DNA of 33,432 nt, taken from assembly GCA_017991635.1 (NCBI GenBank), contig JAGOQE010000006.1, forward strand, positions 1-33,432, in the 5' to 3' direction. The notes under the pieces are model-generated. The model saw only the letters and a program-made list of their open reading frames with translations, was not told the origin of the DNA and searched no databases. Source of the stretch: Minisyncoccota bacterium. Lineage in GTDB: Bacteria > Patescibacteriota > Minisyncoccia > Phycocordibacterales > Phycocordibacteraceae. Both the position numbers and the translations under genes were made by a program. Position 1 is the first letter of the stretch. Each line of letters opens with the position of its first letter. Positions 1,453-23,610 of the stretch are shown piece by piece.

Positions 1453-2244
1453 ATGACCGCACCTGAAGCCGTAGGACATGCAGAGGGCGTAAAAGAGGCG
1501 AGTATTCACGTCGTCCTTAAAGCTGAAGAACTCTTCAGTGTTTTTGGCTTTCCTGTAACGAACTCACTCATCATGACCTGGATTGTCGTTGGTCTGATGA
1601 TTCTCTTCGCTATCCTATTCAAGAACAAGATTGCGATGGTGCCAGGGAAACTACAGGCCGGGATTGAATGGGTCTTTCAAGGAGTGCTCGGCTACATGAC
1701 CGAGATTCTTGAGAGCGAGAAGCTCGCACGTCGATTCTTCCCGCTTATCATGACCATTTTCTTTTTCGTCTTGATTGCAAACGAACTTGCCTTCCTTCCT
1801 GGTATCGGAACTATCGGCCTTGAGGGCGAGCACGGACTTACGCCACTGCTTCGTGCGCCTGGTGCAGACCTTAACATGACGCTTGCTCTCGCTATCATTT
1901 CTTTCCTCACGATTGAAATTACGGGTCTTGTTCAGCTTGGCTTCTTTAAGTACAGTGCAAAGTACGTCAACTTCACCTCTCCGGTGAATTTCGCTGTCGG
2001 CATTATTGAGCTCATCTCAAACCTTGGACGTCTTATTTCGTTCTCGTTCCGTCTTTTCGGAAACGTCTTTGCAGGAGAAGTAATGCTCGTGGTGGCGGCG
2101 TTCTTTGTGCCATACCTACTGCCGGTGCCGTTGATGGGCTTTGAGGTATTCGTAGGCTTTATTCAGGCAGTGGTGTTCGCCATGCTAACCCTGTTCTTTA
2201 TTAAGCTTGCCATCATGGAACCACATGGGTCCGAGAGCCACTAG
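1453..2244 (+). CDS. atpB: F1Fo ATP synthase subunit a
   Basis: Membrane stator subunit that forms the two proton half-channels against the c-ring. The 263-residue protein has five to six hydrophobic segments and the family signature SFSFRLFGN, whose Arg (R200) is the essential channel arginine. Downstream EVMLVV and the C-terminal MLTLFFIKLAIMEPH are also typical. It opens the operon a-c-b-delta-alpha-gamma-beta-epsilon. The start is the ATG in TTTTTGTATG. No SD stands at the usual distance; the nearest purine run (AGAGG) is about 25 nt upstream. No atpI-like gene precedes it in the window. Confidence 0.96.
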   Translation: MTAPEAVGHAEGVKEASIHVVLKAEELFSVFGFPVTNSLIMTWIVVGLMILFAILFKNKIAMVPGKLQAGIEWVFQGVLGYMTEILESEKLARRFFPLIMTIFFFVLIANELAFLPGIGTIGLEGEHGLTPLLRAPGADLNMTLALAIISFLTIEITGLVQLGFFKYSAKYVNFTSPVNFAVGIIELISNLGRLISFSFRLFGNVFAGEVMLVVAAFFVPYLLPVPLMGFEVFVGFIQAVVFAMLTLFFIKLAIMEPHGSESH

Positions 2245-2294
2245 GCTCTTGCATCTATGTGGCTCTTGGATGGGTCAAATTATTTAACGTATAA

Positions 2295-2534
<240 letters not shown>

Positions 2535-2571
2535 CGAGACTCCTGGTCTCGACCTCACTTAAAAACCCTGT

Positions 2572-3015
2572 ATGGAACAACTCTTTGACGCATTCGGCAT
2601 TGACTGGAAGCTCTTGATTGCGCAAGCAATTAACTTCGGCGTCCTTCTTGCTGTTCTCACGTATCTTCTCTACAAGCCAGTCCTAAAGACGCTTGATGAG
2701 CGAAGCGCCCTTATTAAAAAGGGTGTGGTTGATGCTGAGGAAGCAACGAAGAAGCTTGAAGAAGCAGATGACACGGTGAAGGCGCGCCTACAGGAGGCAG
2801 AAGGTGAGGCAGAGGGACTTGTTGCTCGTGCACGCGACGAGGCAGGCTCAGAGCGCTCACGTATTGTGAAGGAGGCGGAGACACGCGCATCTCATATTGA
2901 GAAAGATGCTGAGGCTCGCGCAAAGGAGGCAAAGGAACAGGCTCTCAAGGAGAGTGAGCGTGAAATTGCACGTCTCGCTATCCTTGCTGCAGAGAAAGCT
3001 ATTCGCAAAAGCTAG
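2572..3015 (+). CDS. atpF: F1Fo ATP synthase subunit b
   Basis: Peripheral stalk subunit of 147 residues. One N-terminal membrane helix (about residues 12-34, LLIAQAINFGVLLAVLTYLL) continues into a long charged Ala/Glu/Lys-rich helix up to the C-terminus. That layout is standard for subunit b. It lies between atpE and atpH as expected. The start CCCTGTATGG has no SD. Confidence 0.95.
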   Translation: MEQLFDAFGIDWKLLIAQAINFGVLLAVLTYLLYKPVLKTLDERSALIKKGVVDAEEATKKLEEADDTVKARLQEAEGEAEGLVARARDEAGSERSRIVKEAETRASHIEKDAEARAKEAKEQALKESEREIARLAILAAEKAIRKS

Positions 3016-3020
3016 TACGT

Positions 3021-3386
3021 ATGGAGAAAATTTACGCACAGGCTATCGCCAAGAAGGTTCGTGAAGGAGCGAACGAGGAAGACCTCGTGAAGGCACTTTC
3101 ACTACACCTAGAGCGTATGGGTCGCGTAAAACTTCTCCCTCGTATTGTGGCTGAACTCAAGCGTGAAGTCGCTCGCAAGGAAAAGAGCGAAGCCGTGCTT
3201 GAACTCGCTCACGAAGGACTTCGCGAAAGCGCTCTCAAAGAGCTTTCATCACTCGGCCTCTCAGTGAATGATGTTCGCATCAACACTGACCTTATTGAGG
3301 GGTGGCGCGTTCGCACCGCAAGCTCCGTTCTAGACAAAAGCGCAAAGCGTTCACTGGTGGAGCTCTACAAAAGAATCACCGCATAA
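3021..3386 (+). CDS. atpH: F1Fo ATP synthase subunit delta, short form
   Basis: The delta subunit joins the top of the alpha3beta3 head to the b-subunit stalk. At 121 residues it is clearly shorter than the usual ~175-180. The C-terminal part is recognisable (INTDLIEGWRVRTASSVLD then SAKRSLVELYKR), which corresponds to the b-binding end of the family. The N-terminal helical domain is reduced. It begins 5 nt after atpF ends and has no SD, so translation probably depends on operon context. The identification rests on position plus the C-terminal motif. Confidence 0.88.
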   Translation: MEKIYAQAIAKKVREGANEEDLVKALSLHLERMGRVKLLPRIVAELKREVARKEKSEAVLELAHEGLRESALKELSSLGLSVNDVRINTDLIEGWRVRTASSVLDKSAKRSLVELYKRITA

Positions 3387-3406
3387 TTTATTAATCACGC
3401 ACTTGT

Positions 3407-4957
3407 ATGGAAAGTATTATCAAACGAATTGAAGCAGAAATTGCATCCTTCACGCCTTCTGAAAGTCAGGAGGAGACAGGAATCGTGCGCGCTACCGGAG
3501 ACGGTATTGCAGAAATTGACGGGCTCACGAACGCAGTGATGACGGAGATGGTGCTCTTTGATCCATCATTCGATCGATCACTTGAGGAGGCACTCAAAGA
3601 CCCAGAAGCACTCTACGGTCTTGTCCTAAACCTTGAAGAAGACGGCGTTCGTGCCGTGATTCTCGGTAACGGCTCTCGTGTGTACGAGGGTATGCTTGTG
3701 CGTCGTCTCGGTCGTTTGCTTTCCATTCCTGTCGGTGACGCACTCATCGGTCGCGTAGTGAATCCGCTTGGAGAAGTACTTGATGGTAAGGGTGCTGTAG
3801 AAGGTACTGCCTTTCGTCCTATTGAGCGCGAAGCATACGGCGTGATGGATCGCTCTCCAGTGAATACTCCCATCCACACTGGAATCAAGGCTATTGACTC
3901 AATGATTCCAATTGGTCGTGGTCAGCGTGAGCTCATCATCGGTGACCGCGGTACTGGAAAGACGACCATTGCAATTGACACCATCCTCAATCAAAAAGCA
4001 GAGCCAGAGGCTACTCGCCCTATCTGTATTTACGTCGCTATTGGTCAGAAGGAATCAAAGACTGCGAAAATTGTAGCTCAACTTGCTGAGGCAGGCGCTA
4101 TGGATTACACCATCGTCGTTACTGCTCCCGCATCAAGTCCTGCTGCCTTTCAGTTCCTCGCACCGTTTGCAGGAGCTGCTATTGGTGAGCACTTCATGGA
4201 GCAGGGAAAGGACGCGCTCGTTATCTACGATGACCTTTCAAAGCAGGCTGTTGCGTACCGTCAGATGTCACTTCTCCTTCGTCGTCCACCAGGTCGCGAG
4301 GCGTACCCAGGAGACATCTTCTACCTACACTCACGCTTGCTTGAGCGTGCCGCAAAGCTCTCTAAAGAAAAGGGTGGAGGCTCTCTTACAGCGCTCCCTA
4401 TCATTGAGACACAGGAGAATGATGTGTCTGCGTACATTCCAACAAACGTAATCTCAATTACGGACGGACAAATCTTCCTTGAGGCTGACCTCTTCAACAA
4501 GGGTATGCGTCCCGCTATTAACGTGGGACTCTCCGTGTCTCGTGTGGGCTCAAGTGCTCAGACGAAGGCAATGAAGAAGGTGTCAGGAAAGATTAAGCTT
4601 GAGCTTGCGCAGTTCCGCGAACTTGAAGCTTTCATGCAGTTTGCCTCTGACCTTGATGCTGATACTAAGAAGCGTATTGATTCAGGACGTCGCATGACTG
4701 AAGTGTTGAAGCAGGGAAATGGAGCACCACTTCCTTTTGAGATGCAAGCAGCAGTTATCTACGCTGCTACAAACGGATTCTTTGATGGTTTTGAGCCAGA
4801 TGAGACTGCAGCAGCAGAGCGCAAGCTTCAGGACTATCTCATGCGTGAGGGAGAAAATGTGTTGAAGGCAATTCGTGATGGTCGCGAAATTAGTGAAGAT
4901 ACCGAAGGTAAGCTCAAAGAAGTCTTGACTGCCTTTGCTGAGCGCACTGCTGAGTAA
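3407..4957 (+). CDS. atpA: F1Fo ATP synthase subunit alpha
   Basis: Non-catalytic nucleotide-binding subunit of the F1 head, with normal length (516). The P-loop is GDRGTGKT at residues 179-186. Most bacterial alpha subunits have GDRQTGKT, so the Gln is replaced by Gly. Other signatures are intact: [20 protein letters not shown], the SVSRVG segment carrying the Arg that reaches the catalytic site, and the [17 protein letters not shown] stretch. The start TTGTATGG lacks an SD. Confidence 0.97.
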
Positions 4958-4977
4958 TACTCAAATCCAAACTTCCT

Positions 4978-7292
<2,315 letters not shown>

Positions 7293-7546: not shown

Positions 7547-7574
7547 TTGCAGTTATGACTTGCTGAGTCATAAT
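7547..7574 (+). promoter_or_regulatory. Promoter with overlapping inverted repeat
   Basis: TTGCAG (7547-7552), 16 nt and CATAAT (7569-7574). The -10 lies 6 nt before the ATG at 7581, so the transcript should be leaderless. A perfect 8-bp inverted repeat, TTATGACT (7553-7560) and AGTCATAA (7566-7573), fills the spacer and overlaps the -10, as an operator would. Confidence 0.6.
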
Positions 7575-7580
7575 TACGAT

Positions 7581-7991
7581 ATGACCCGGGATGGCGACTA
7601 CCACGTTGAGTCATTTCTAAAATGGCCAAAGCACTACCACGGTGACGTGGTGAGGGTGCTGTTCGTTGCAATTGCCATGCTCATATTCCTCACGGAGTTT
7701 GTAGGAGCCAGACTTCCATTCACGTCATCAGGAATCATAACGATGGTCCTCGTTCTCGTAATTTCTGCTGGAATTACAAATCCGGCACAGAAGTGGATTC
7801 ACATCTTGAATATGGGCATCTCAATCTTTGGAACTATGATTTTTGGTAATGTAGCTCTCTCAAAGCTGAACGTGCCGTCTGCAGATATTTCTCAAGTTGG
7901 TACCGTCACACTTATTTCAGTACTGTTTCTCTGCGCACTCTATTTCGCAACCCGGACTGTACGTGGTCGTTTTGTTACTCACGTCGATTAA
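7581..7991 (+). CDS. Small integral membrane protein, function unknown
   Basis: A 136-residue protein. After a polar N-terminus (MTRDGDYHVESFLKWPKHYH) it has about four hydrophobic segments: VRVLFVAIAMLIFLTEFVGA, IITMVLVLVISAGI, ILNMGISIFGTMIFGNVAL and VTLISVLFLCALYFATR. I recognise no family. The ATG at 7581 is preferred over the upstream one at 7560 because the promoter -10 lies between them. It follows the ATP synthase operon but has its own promoter, so a role with the enzyme is not implied. Confidence 0.65.
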   Translation: MTRDGDYHVESFLKWPKHYHGDVVRVLFVAIAMLIFLTEFVGARLPFTSSGIITMVLVLVISAGITNPAQKWIHILNMGISIFGTMIFGNVALSKLNVPSADISQVGTVTLISVLFLCALYFATRTVRGRFVTHVD

Positions 7992-12213: not shown

Positions 12214-15048
12214 ATGAAAGGGTTCCGACACGACGAGATTGAGAAACATGCCCAAGAGAAGTGGGAGCGACTAGAACTTAATCGCTCCAATCTTACTGAC
12301 GATACCCGTGAACCATACTATCTTTTATTTGAGTTCCCCTACCCCTCAGGTGACCTTCACATAGGACATTGGTACGCTTTCGCGCTTACTGACATCTACG
12401 CTCGATTTCTCAGGCAAACTGGGAAGAACGTGCTTTTCCCGGTCGGTTTTGATGCCTTTGGTCTTCCCGCTGAAAACGCAGCAATAAAGCATGGAGTGAA
12501 TCCGCGCGAGTGGACCTACAAGAACATGGAGCATATGCGTACGCAGATGAAATCTATGGGTACGTCAGTGGATTGGTCACGTGAGGTCATCACGTGTGAT
12601 CCAAGCTACTACAAGTGGACGCAGTGGCTCTTCATTAAACTAATGGAACAAGGCTTAGCCGAGCGAAAGGAGGCGAGTGTGAAATGGTGTCCTAAAGACA
12701 ATACCGTACTTGCAAATGAGCAGGTTGTTGATGGTGCGTGTGAGCGTTGTGGTACTGAAGTTGAGGAGAAACGTCTTACGCAGTGGTTTATGAAGATAAC
12801 CGACTATGCCGAGCGTCTCCTTTCTGACCTGGACCCGCTTCCATGGCGCGAAGATATTAAGGAGGCACAACGCGCTTGGATTGGTAAGTCAGAGGGTGCC
12901 GCGCTCACATTTTCAATACAAAACTCCGATGAGTTTATTACGGTATTTACCACCCGTCCTGACACGGTCTTTGGCGCTACCTATGTTGTCCTCGCCCCTG
13001 AACATAAGCTTGTTGATGTGCTTAAGGACTCAATCACCAACTGGAGTAAAGTGGAGGCGTACAGAACACAAACCTCACGCAAGACTGATAGAGAGCGTTC
13101 AGAGAATAAGGAAAAGACTGGCGTAGAACTCAAGGGTGTCTCTGCAATTAATCCGGGAACTAAGGAGGCAATTCCTGTGTATCTCGCGGATTACGTCCTT
13201 GGCTCATATGGAACAGGTGCTGTTATGGCTGTGCCTGCCCATGACGAGCGTGACTATGAGTTTGCTAAAAGAATGTCACTCCCTGTAACGCACGTTGTGT
13301 TGCCTGTACGTATTGATGAGAAGAATCCTCAAATTCCCGGAAAGGAAGTGGTTTTCCGAAATCTTGTCATGGCAATTGTTCGTAATCCTAGAAATGACAC
13401 GTACTTAGTTCTCAGGGTAAAGAGTCCTGAATGGACCACCTTTGTGATTGGAGGTGTTGAAGATGGTGAGGACATTGAAACAGCCGCAAGACGTGAGATT
13501 CTCGAGGAGTCAGGCTACAAGAATCTCAAGTTCATTCGTACTCTTGGCGGTCCAATCCAGTCTGAATTTTATGCTGGCCATAAAGGAGTGAATAGAGTTG
13601 CGCACAACACAACAGTCCTATTTGAGCTTCTTGATGAGGCTCAGGAGCCTCTCTCAGAGGAAGAGGCAGATAAACACACTGTTGATTGGGTTCCTTTTTC
13701 TGAGATTACGCGCGAAAAAATGTCGCACGCTGAACTTGATATTGTTCTTGCTCGTCTAGAACAGGGCGATGGTGCCTACACAGGTGAGGGAGTGCTCGTG
13801 AACTCTGGGCCATTCAATGGGCGAAATAATGAGGAGGCCATGTGGGACATTGTTGAGTCAGTGGATGGCACAAGAACAACGAACTACCGCATCCGCGACT
13901 GGCTCGTGTCTCGTCAGCGTTACTGGGGCTGTCCAATCCCTGTTGCGTACGATCCGGAAGGAAAGCCTCATCCAATCCCTTCTGAGCATCTCCCATGGCT
14001 CTTGCCCGAGGATGTGGACTTCGCGCTTGGTGGCGCAGACTCACCTCTAAAGACCTCAAAGGAGCTTAAGGCACGAGTTGAGGCAATCTTTGGTGAGGGG
14101 TGGACACCTGAGTACGACACGCTTGATACTTTTGTCGATTCTTCTTGGTACTTCTATCGCTATCTTACGCCTACGGACGAACATCACTTCTCAGACAGCG
14201 CTCTCATGAAGAAGTGGCTACCTGTGGACCGTTACTCGGGAGGAAGTGAGCATACGACTATGCACCTTCTCTATGCGCGTTTCTTTCATAAGGCACTTCA
14301 CGACCTTGCCCTCGTGCCTGGAGAGGAGCCATTTGTAGAGCGCTTCAATCGCGGACTTATTCTTGGACCTGATGGACAGAAAATGAGTAAGTCGAAAGGT
14401 AATGTCGTTAACCCCGATGAGTGTGTGAAGGAATTTGGCGCAGACGCTATTCGCGCATACCTTGCCTTTATTGGTCCCTACAACGAGTCTGGCACCTACC
14501 CTTGGAATCTGGACGGTGTGAAGAGTATGCGTACGTTCCTTGAGCGAGTACAGAAGCTCAAAGACAAGGTGGTGGAATGTCCTGGCTCACTCGCTCGTCC
14601 CATTGCGCGTACCGCGCAGGGTGTTTCTGAGGACACTACTAAGTTCAAATACAATACGGCTCTCGCAAAGCTCATGACGCTTGTCCGAGAGTTTGAGAAG
14701 GCACCTGCAATCACACTCGCGGAGTATCACGACCTGCTCACTCTTCTTGCTCCATACGCTCCACACCTGAGCGAGCATTTGTACGGTGAAGGGCAGGAGT
14801 ACGAAAGTATTCACCTTCGTCCGTTCCCAGTAGTGGATGGAGCGCTCCTTGAAGAGGACACAGAGACGCTTACCGTGCAGGTCTTAGGCAAGAAACGTGC
14901 CGAACTGACCGTGCCGAAGGGCTCTGACGAGGCGTTTGTTGTTGGGGAGGCGAAGAAGCTTCCTGAGGTCTCAAAGTATCTTGACGGAAAGGAAATAAAT
15001 CGTGTAATCTACGTTTCTGGGCGTATTTTGAACTTCGTGGTTTCTTAG
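12214..15048 (+). CDS. leuS: Leucyl-tRNA synthetase with inserted NUDIX hydrolase domain
   Basis: 944 residues. Class Ia features are complete: HIGH at 49-52 in SGDLHIGHWYAF, KMSKS at 723-727 in GQKMSKSKGN, the catalytic-core DSSWYFYRY and YSGGSEHTTMHLLYARFF, and RDWLVSRQRYWGCPIP. The CP1 editing domain is seen as FTTRPDTVFGATYVVLAPEH and GTGAVMAVPAHDERDYEFA. After LPVTHVVLP, about 150 extra residues (roughly 370-517) form a NUDIX domain. Its box at 413-435 fits GX5EX7REUXEEXGU exactly, ending in RREILEESGY. The chain then returns to the normal LeuRS sequence EGVLVNSGPFNG. The frame is continuous, so this is a true fusion. Attachment of Leu to tRNA is certain; the NUDIX substrate is unknown. 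Confidence 0.96.
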   Translation: MKGFRHDEIEKHAQEKWERLELNRSNLTDDTREPYYLLFEFPYPSGDLHIGHWYAFALTDIYARFLRQTGKNVLFPVGFDAFGLPAENAAIKHGVNPREWTYKNMEHMRTQMKSMGTSVDWSREVITCDPSYYKWTQWLFIKLMEQGLAERKEASVKWCPKDNTVLANEQVVDGACERCGTEVEEKRLTQWFMKITDYAERLLSDLDPLPWREDIKEAQRAWIGKSEGAALTFSIQNSDEFITVFTTRPDTVFGATYVVLAPEHKLVDVLKDSITNWSKVEAYRTQTSRKTDRERSENKEKTGVELKGVSAINPGTKEAIPVYLADYVLGSYGTGAVMAVPAHDERDYEFAKRMSLPVTHVVLPVRIDEKNPQIPGKEVVFRNLVMAIVRNPRNDTYLVLRVKSPEWTTFVIGGVEDGEDIETAARREILEESGYKNLKFIRTLGGPIQSEFYAGHKGVNRVAHNTTVLFELLDEAQEPLSEEEADKHTVDWVPFSEITREKMSHAELDIVLARLEQGDGAYTGEGVLVNSGPFNGRNNEEAMWDIVESVDGTRTTNYRIRDWLVSRQRYWGCPIPVAYDPEGKPHPIPSEHLPWLLPEDVDFALGGADSPLKTSKELKARVEAIFGEGWTPEYDTLDTFVDSSWYFYRYLTPTDEHHFSDSALMKKWLPVDRYSGGSEHTTMHLLYARFFHKALHDLALVPGEEPFVERFNRGLILGPDGQKMSKSKGNVVNPDECVKEFGADAIRAYLAFIGPYNESGTYPWNLDGVKSMRTFLERVQKLKDKVVECPGSLARPIARTAQGVSEDTTKFKYNTALAKLMTLVREFEKAPAITLAEYHDLLTLLAPYAPHLSEHLYGEGQEYESIHLRPFPVVDGALLEEDTETLTVQVLGKKRAELTVPKGSDEAFVVGEAKKLPEVSKYLDGKEINRVIYVSGRILNFVVS

Positions 15049-18080: not shown

Positions 18081-18491
18081 ATGTCATCTACATCAAAAGC
18101 GCCCACAGTACTCGTTAAACGCTCTTCAGCAGGGTTAGGACTCTTTGCGGGAGAACCAATCAAGAAGGGAACCTTTATTATCGAGTATGTGGGTAGGGTC
18201 ATTTCGAAAGAGGAGGAAGAAACCTCAAGAAGTAAGTACCTATTTGAAGTTTCAAGCAAAAAAACTATTGACGGTTCGGACAGGAGTAATACTGCCCGAT
18301 ATATTAATCATGCGTGCAAACCAAACGCAGAGGCCGAGATTAAGTCAGGTCGAGTTATGATCTCTGCAATCAAGAATATTGCGAGTGGTGATGAGATTAC
18401 GTATGACTACGGTAAAGAGTATGTAAATGAGCATATCAAGCCACACGGCTGTAAATGTGCCTCATGCATAGCTAAGCGCTCTGCAGTGTAA
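18081..18491 (+). CDS. SET-domain protein-lysine methyltransferase
   Basis: 136 residues, a compact SET domain with post-SET zinc site. Motifs in order: GLGLFA (18-23), IEYVG (34-38), RYINHACKPN (73-82, the NHxCxPN pseudoknot motif), EITYDYG (105-111) and CKCASC (124-129). These are the SAM- and lysine-binding elements of eukaryotic histone methyltransferases. SET proteins occur in some bacteria, such as Chlamydia. A small basic or DNA-binding protein is a likely type of substrate, but this is inference. It is divergent from vanY across an 82-bp gap and lacks an SD. Confidence 0.92.
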   Translation: MSSTSKAPTVLVKRSSAGLGLFAGEPIKKGTFIIEYVGRVISKEEEETSRSKYLFEVSSKKTIDGSDRSNTARYINHACKPNAEAEIKSGRVMISAIKNIASGDEITYDYGKEYVNEHIKPHGCKCASCIAKRSAV

Positions 18492-23197: not shown

Positions 23198-23587
23198 CTA
23201 GGTAACTCGCAGTTTCGAAGCCGTGGTGGAAATGCGTTCCTTAGCACTTTCGTCATGTGTGAATTTCAAAAAGTCTTCGTGAGGAGGCTGTGGAATGAGG
23301 TGCATGTGCACGTGAGGAACAGACAGGCCTTCAAGAGTGAAGACAACTACCTTTGGCGCGAGACGTTCCTTAAGAACAAGCGCAACCGTTCGTGAAGCGT
23401 CCATGAGGTCTCTGTACTCGCTCTCATCTAAGTCTAGGACATTCTCCTTGTGGTACTTGGGAATAACTAACGTATGTCCGTCGGTGACTGGATTGTGATC
23501 AAGAAAGGCAATGTGAGACTCACTTTCCCAAATACGGGAGTGATGTGGCTCGTCAGTGCTGACAATCGAACAGAAAACGCATTCCAT
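23198..23587 (-). CDS. HIT-family nucleotide hydrolase
   Basis: 129 residues. The zinc-type N-terminus MECVFCSI, the helix HNPVTDGHTLVIPKYH and the catalytic histidine triad HVHMHL (92-97) identify the HIT family, which hydrolyses nucleoside phosphoramidates or dinucleotides. The ATG at 23587 is preferred over one at 23608 because a TAGTAT box lies 7 nt upstream of it, giving a leaderless start. There is no SD, in contrast to the FAD oxidoreductase gene just upstream. Confidence 0.92.
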   Translation of the reverse strand: MECVFCSIVSTDEPHHSRIWESESHIAFLDHNPVTDGHTLVIPKYHKENVLDLDESEYRDLMDASRTVALVLKERLAPKVVVFTLEGLSVPHVHMHLIPQPPHEDFLKFTHDESAKERISTTASKLRVT

Positions 23588-23594
23588 TTCAGTA

Positions 23595-23600
23595 ATACTA
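23595..23600 (-). promoter_or_regulatory. TAGTAT -10 box of the HIT gene
   Basis: On the minus strand TAGTAT lies 7 nt before the ATG at 23587. This agrees with the -10 to ATG distance of other leaderless genes in the window. Confidence 0.45.
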
Positions 23601-23610
23601 TCATGCAAAA

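Follow-up and report, generated by a model that had tools for sequence, protein, structure and literature searches.

A NUDIX hydrolase domain as an exchangeable cassette in the editing region of Patescibacteria leucyl-tRNA synthetases

The leucyl-tRNA synthetase (LeuRS) encoded in the window (the whole 33,432-nucleotide stretch of Minisyncoccota DNA analysed here) has a complete NUDIX domain replacing a short loop of its CP1 editing region, and this insert is an exchangeable cassette, mobile relative to its host gene. Both parts belong to known families; what appears to be undescribed is their combination in one protein, together with the spread and the exchange of that architecture. The reading that we favour, and regard as probable, is that an active NUDIX hydrolase is housed in a working LeuRS, making the protein bifunctional, and is swapped as a module. 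The domain would hydrolyse a substrate of the nucleoside-diphosphate type while LeuRS charges and edits tRNA, and would be kept for its catalytic activity.

The leuS gene with its inserted NUDIX domain occupies positions 12214..15048 (+) and is open throughout, as the sequence-only reading had it (a continuous frame of 944 codons). The 944 aa product is a full-length member of the curated bacterial LeuRS equivalog TIGR00396 (leuS_bact; 872 bits against a cut-off of 548) and the sole LeuRS detected in its genome (726 kb), where one of nine NUDIX matches lies inside LeuRS. From the translation, the class I synthetase motifs HIGH (12358..12369, +; residues 49-52) and KMSKS (14380..14394, +; residues 723-727) are present, and both CP1 editing motifs are intact: the T-rich motif TTRPDT (12949..12966, +; residues 246-251), also located in an alignment of 193 LeuRS, and HDERD (13240..13254, +; residues 343-347), conserved in the LeuRS alignment. 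With these four motifs in place the host LeuRS has apparently been left functional. An AlphaFold2 (AF2) model of the full-length protein (pLDDT 89.7, pTM 0.80) shows both insert junctions at high confidence, and its best PDB matches are LeuRS structures (Z 39-44). The solved LeuRS of T. thermophilus (1obc/2bte), E. coli (4aq7) and Agrobacterium (5ah5) have the same core, CP1 and motifs, but no NUDIX domain is described in them, whereas the window LeuRS adds 157 residues in CP1. Elsewhere in the window, a 143-aa ORF directly 3' of the ATP synthase genes (7560-7991, +) has apparently hydrophobic segments and no Pfam match, and a small SET-domain protein is encoded at 18081-18491 (+; PF00856, E 3.5e-25); the SET family is better known for eukaryotic lysine methyltransferases.

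The inserted domain lies at 13297..13767 (+; residues 362-518, site C), as delimited by comparison with insert-free relatives, in which CP1 has a loop of about 8-20 residues at this place. The Pfam NUDIX family PF00293 matches residues 384-505 (E 4e-15 for the full-length protein, 1.9e-16 for the insert on its own); in Pfam searches of the excised insert NUDIX was the sole match, with no splicing (Hint) or endonuclease domain and no mobility gene. The NUDIX box GGVEDGEDIETAARREILEESGY (13450..13518, +; residues 413-435), with catalytic R427, E428, E431 and E432, has zero mismatches to the consensus GX5EX7REUXEEXGU. AF2 of the insert alone (86 relatives in the input) gave a mean pLDDT of 92.6, and among PDB structures this model is closest to 2azw, a MutT/NUDIX protein (Z 18.2, rmsd 2.1, 146 residues). 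After it come RppH (Z about 15), to which more of the top matches below 2azw belong than to any other group, and Ap4A/Ap6A hydrolases, MutT1, NUDT15 and others, the whole group lying at Z 13.7-15.4. Sequence identity of the insert to solved NUDIX members is merely 15-23%. It has the fold and the complete box in common with PF00293 hydrolases (2azw, RppH, Ap4A/Ap6A hydrolases), and differs from them in being embedded in a synthetase and in its own conserved HKxxNR motif. A NUDIX domain in the LeuRS CP1 editing region, with a perfect box at residues 413-435, had been proposed from the sequence; Pfam, AF2 and PDB fold comparison agree on the domain and the box fits exactly. The extra segment had been placed at 13320-13767, of which the end stands and the start has to be moved about 8 residues earlier, to 13297. 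The possibility raised there that the segment is an ordinary CP1 extension fails against the short loop of the insert-free relatives, and the structure prediction suggested there as a check does give a NUDIX fold carrying the box.

All three catalytic Glu residues of the box are present in 128 of 132 inserts (the other four have lost one) and E428 is invariant (132/132), at a typical pairwise identity among inserts of about 40%; further top-conserved positions are G413, G434, W492, K457 and E484. A subfamily motif, HKGVNR (13579..13596, +; residues 456-461), lies near the X-loop, which determines substrate specificity in NUDIX enzymes (position from PMC5389931), and is itself conserved, K457 being found in 127 and N460 and R461 in 117 of the 132. 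E484 (13663..13665, +), a Glu outside the box kept in 93% of inserts, is a candidate extra metal ligand or base by analogy with Glu125 of lupin Ap4A hydrolase (PMC2707057). Over eight close pairs (Nei-Gojobori) dN/dS was 0.010-0.066 for the insert and 0.026-0.177 for the host LeuRS, the insert being lower in every pair where both were computable; dS is near saturation in some pairs, so that the insert-versus-host contrast carries more weight than the exact values. Purifying selection is shown by computation to act on the insert's predicted catalytic activity, and the sequence-only view of a genuine NUDIX domain in CP1 is thereby upheld for its catalytic residues as well, which are kept under strong selection. 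Since insert-free LeuRS are frequent in the same genus, the NUDIX function would there be dispensable or otherwise met.

The history of the insert departs from that of LeuRS, which is the outcome of the search and tree mapping of insert-bearing LeuRS that had been suggested from the sequence. With 192 rows in the LeuRS core tree (the trees being quick ones), parsimony requires at least 42 gains or losses of the insert, and well supported branches alone make at least 28 necessary. Two LeuRS that are 94.5% identical (L056 and L141) differ in the insert, the NUDIX domain of one being matched in the other by the eight residues VEIAGAEL; in another pair (L088/L137) the hosts are 82% and the inserts just 32% identical, and in a third (L108/L143) hosts of 47% identity carry inserts of 77% identity. 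Across 5355 pairs, how similar the hosts are is only weakly correlated with how similar their inserts are (Spearman 0.20). Maximum-likelihood trees of host and insert have 8 of 100 splits in common, all of them shallow, and forcing the host topology on the insert data costs 3708 log units, the insert topology on the host 17237. Similarity begins and ends at the loop, giving the cassette sharp boundaries. Where the two members of a pair differ in the insert, a DNA identity of about 0.9 drops to about 0.7 near the site (roughly -50 to +125 nt), and this dip is absent in three of four pairs with the same insert, which suggests, in a small sample, that a short flank may travel along with the cassette. 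The LeuRS gene itself has also been transferred in Patescibacteria, which does not explain why a gene and the insert within it should disagree. The insert has thus been gained, lost and replaced repeatedly through horizontal exchange of a short stretch of leuS. Searches of viral, phage and plasmid collections (IMG/VR, phages, plasmids) returned no relatives of the insert; the vehicle was probably uptake of foreign DNA followed by recombination, and Patescibacteria have been described as competent (PMC10633639, PMC12455944).

The insertion is not peculiar to the genome of the window, and here the framing of the sequence-only reading is not supported: the module recurs across Patescibacteria and is exchangeable. 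LeuRS-sized frames with a NUDIX match were found in about 53 of 380 genomes sampled evenly across the phylum (part of these frames were fetched and confirmed as LeuRS), plus one match in an isoleucyl-tRNA synthetase (IleRS), and in the window's genus 35 of 79 genomes have a NUDIX domain in a frame of at least 945 aa. When 84,980 species were scanned globally with a 7-row insert alignment, at a sensitivity bounded by two peptide patterns, 161 relatives were returned, of which the best 80 are all from Patescibacteria or unclassified metagenome-assembled genomes; within the scan's sensitivity the insert is restricted to Patescibacteria. A homologous domain at the same position in more than 100 independent LeuRS genes far exceeds chance. 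The subfamily is found almost only inside Patescibacteria LeuRS. Standalone small proteins belonging to it (L059:3818-4291, L081, L158, L168) nest among the LeuRS inserts, so that the subfamily has probably passed between a free and an inserted state, in one direction or the other. One assembly with a standalone NUDIX protein (G010, 84% complete) yielded no LeuRS. A standalone copy as substitute for the insert was considered and rejected, as insert-free genomes of the genus generally have no close standalone relative.

Most NUDIX inserts are at site C (about residue 361), as in the window; the other NUDIX sites are A (about 208, ahead of CP1) and B (about 240, at the start of CP1), and six LeuRS (L103, L126, L128, L153, L166, L173) have two or three NUDIX domains. 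Other inserted segments, near the start of CP1 or after it, were seen in L172, L149, L106, L091, L183, L119, L123, L179, L045, L038, L166, L212 and L215-L218; nearly all match serine-hydrolase or alpha/beta-hydrolase families (e.g. L038, L045, L149, L172), and that of L106 has no family match. HAD inserts occur in L170 and L185, a Ham1/ITPase insert in L170 and nucleotidyltransferase inserts in L170 and, adjoining site C, in L213. In L170 (positions 1677-6500, genome G061) HAD, Ham1/ITPase, NUDIX and nucleotidyltransferase domains thus stand in the single frame of a LeuRS of at least about 1600 aa, and an IleRS of at least 1453 aa (L171:2141-6499, G337) has serine-hydrolase-like, NUDIX and histidine-phosphatase inserts. 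It is conceivable, at somewhat short of an even chance in our estimation, that the editing region of Patescibacteria class I synthetases serves to hold small enzymes that can replace one another, being loaded and traded horizontally at a small number of fixed loops in an essential gene. We put forward with the same reserve the list of what it would hold, namely NUDIX (up to three copies), serine-hydrolase-like, HAD, ITPase and nucleotidyltransferase domains, and a histidine phosphatase in one IleRS.

Variation in the editing motifs themselves was also seen. Nine LeuRS (L026, L027, L054, L057, L083, L103, L128, L135 and L209) have TTRPDT replaced (by NSVPQT, DSIPQT, SAHFEA or TKFWET) and HDxRD retained, and post-transfer editing may be altered or lost in them. 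Coupling of the insert to loss of editing was rejected, as in the alignment of 193 an altered T-rich motif occurs in both classes, nine NUDIX-bearing and three insert-free LeuRS, and does not track the insert. One contig (G016:C16) has two distinct leuS genes (L053, L054), one NUDIX-bearing and the other insert-free with a degenerate T-rich motif.

The substrate of the NUDIX domain is most likely a small nucleotide. The sequence-only reading had suggested that the domain may clear or sense Ap4A-like side products of the synthetase. Aminoacyl-tRNA synthetases make dinucleoside polyphosphates, which makes these attractive as substrates; we consider them a possible choice of rather low probability, and Ap4A is a possible member to which no specific feature points. 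ApnA hydrolases have an X-loop tyrosine about 17 residues past the NUDIX box (PMC5389931), and the window insert has Y453 at +18 from the box, but of the 132 inserts 74 have F at this position and 52 have Y, so it is unconserved and Ap4A could not be named from it. The NADH diphosphatase signature SQPWPFPQS, downstream of the box (PMC5389931), is missing from the window LeuRS translation, and residues 448-470, read without position alignment to ADP-ribose diphosphatases, contain no proline of the kind that those enzymes have past the box in the X-loop region (PMC5389931). Choosing a substrate from the fold neighbours also failed, with so many NUDIX families within the narrow range of Z given above that the ranking does not discriminate. 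The window encodes a HIT-domain protein as well (23198-23608, -; PF01230). Certain HIT proteins hydrolyse dinucleoside polyphosphates or aminoacyl-AMP, and its presence therefore bears on the need for the NUDIX domain.

Other explanations have to be weighed against an active hydrolase carried by LeuRS. The domain might be a sensor of a nucleotide or alarmone that tunes charging or editing by LeuRS and is no enzyme in its own right; its location inside the editing domain, and that of the extra copies and the IleRS case in or beside CP1, hints at such coupling. We think this unlikely, since the metal-binding Glu residues are among the best conserved positions, beyond what a binder needs, and since inserts of about 32% identity swapped between LeuRS of about 82% identity argue against a tuned allosteric interface. 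That LeuRS loops simply tolerate globular domains, the NUDIX being a selfish or neutral rider of no use to the cell, would fit its patchy presence and the unrelated enzyme domains at several LeuRS sites. Such a mere passenger is disfavoured by the low dN/dS of the insert (below that of the host) and the retained catalytic Glu residues, as well as by the lack of any Pfam match to a mobility gene or splicing domain in the excised insert, and it has in our view only a small chance of being right.

It is also improbable, to much the same degree, that the NUDIX domain acts on tRNA or other RNA held by LeuRS, for instance at a 5' phosphate or an NAD or dinucleotide cap close to the acceptor end. RppH-type NUDIX enzymes act on RNA in this way and RppH is the largest group of fold matches below 2azw; moreover, it is established for LeuRS that during editing the 3' end of the tRNA is accommodated in CP1. 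The fold ranking is, however, blind to substrate, many NUDIX families scoring at Z of about 14-15. With source genomes that are mainly metagenome-assembled, one might suspect that a NUDIX gene was joined to leuS by misassembly or by a fusion of frames, but the same in-frame architecture recurs, with conserved junctions, in LeuRS from numerous sampling projects (more than 100 distinct proteins), which leaves this effectively refuted. The preferred reading remains that of an active NUDIX hydrolase in a working LeuRS.

We found no paper on a NUDIX domain in LeuRS or any other synthetase in the literature searched, most subscription papers lying outside the search. The cyanobacterial CAAD domain is a membrane anchor repeatedly recruited by class I synthetases including LeuRS and IleRS, and is like the NUDIX insert in having more than one insertion point, relatives that stand alone and a patchy distribution (PMC4893482). 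Unlike the insert, CAAD is no enzyme and species with a common insertion site tend to cluster (PMC4893482), whereas what has entered the editing domain here is an enzyme, and one that passes from host to host. CAAD is nonetheless the nearest precedent. Inteins are in-frame inserts in conserved proteins, patchy in occurrence and with histories unlike those of their hosts. The NUDIX insert resembles them in its patchiness and host-discordant history, but, with NUDIX as the only match and no Hint/splicing or endonuclease domain in the excised segment, its identification as an intein was rejected. In a 2026 Protein Sci survey of domain insertions the LeuRS editing domain (PF13603) is an inserted module, and for insertion-consistent families no host case was found among classified structures (PMC13114784). 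Here the LeuRS editing domain itself hosts other enzymes, and the NUDIX domain in CP1 contradicts the published statement that domains of the insertion-only kind, the editing domain of LeuRS included, are never hosts (PMC13114784).

An essential protein, as a rule under strong constraint, thus harbours a second enzyme that moves between lineages while the host gene does not, and the natural series of insertions, deletions and replacements lets one study how enzymes accept domains. The case is testable, as one Patescibacteria lineage is genetically tractable through natural competence (PMC10633639). If the editing region is indeed a holder for small enzymes, accessory enzymes would travel, and be expressed, within a housekeeping protein. 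For a very large and poorly understood group of bacteria, the finding points to a nucleotide chemistry coupled to tRNA charging.
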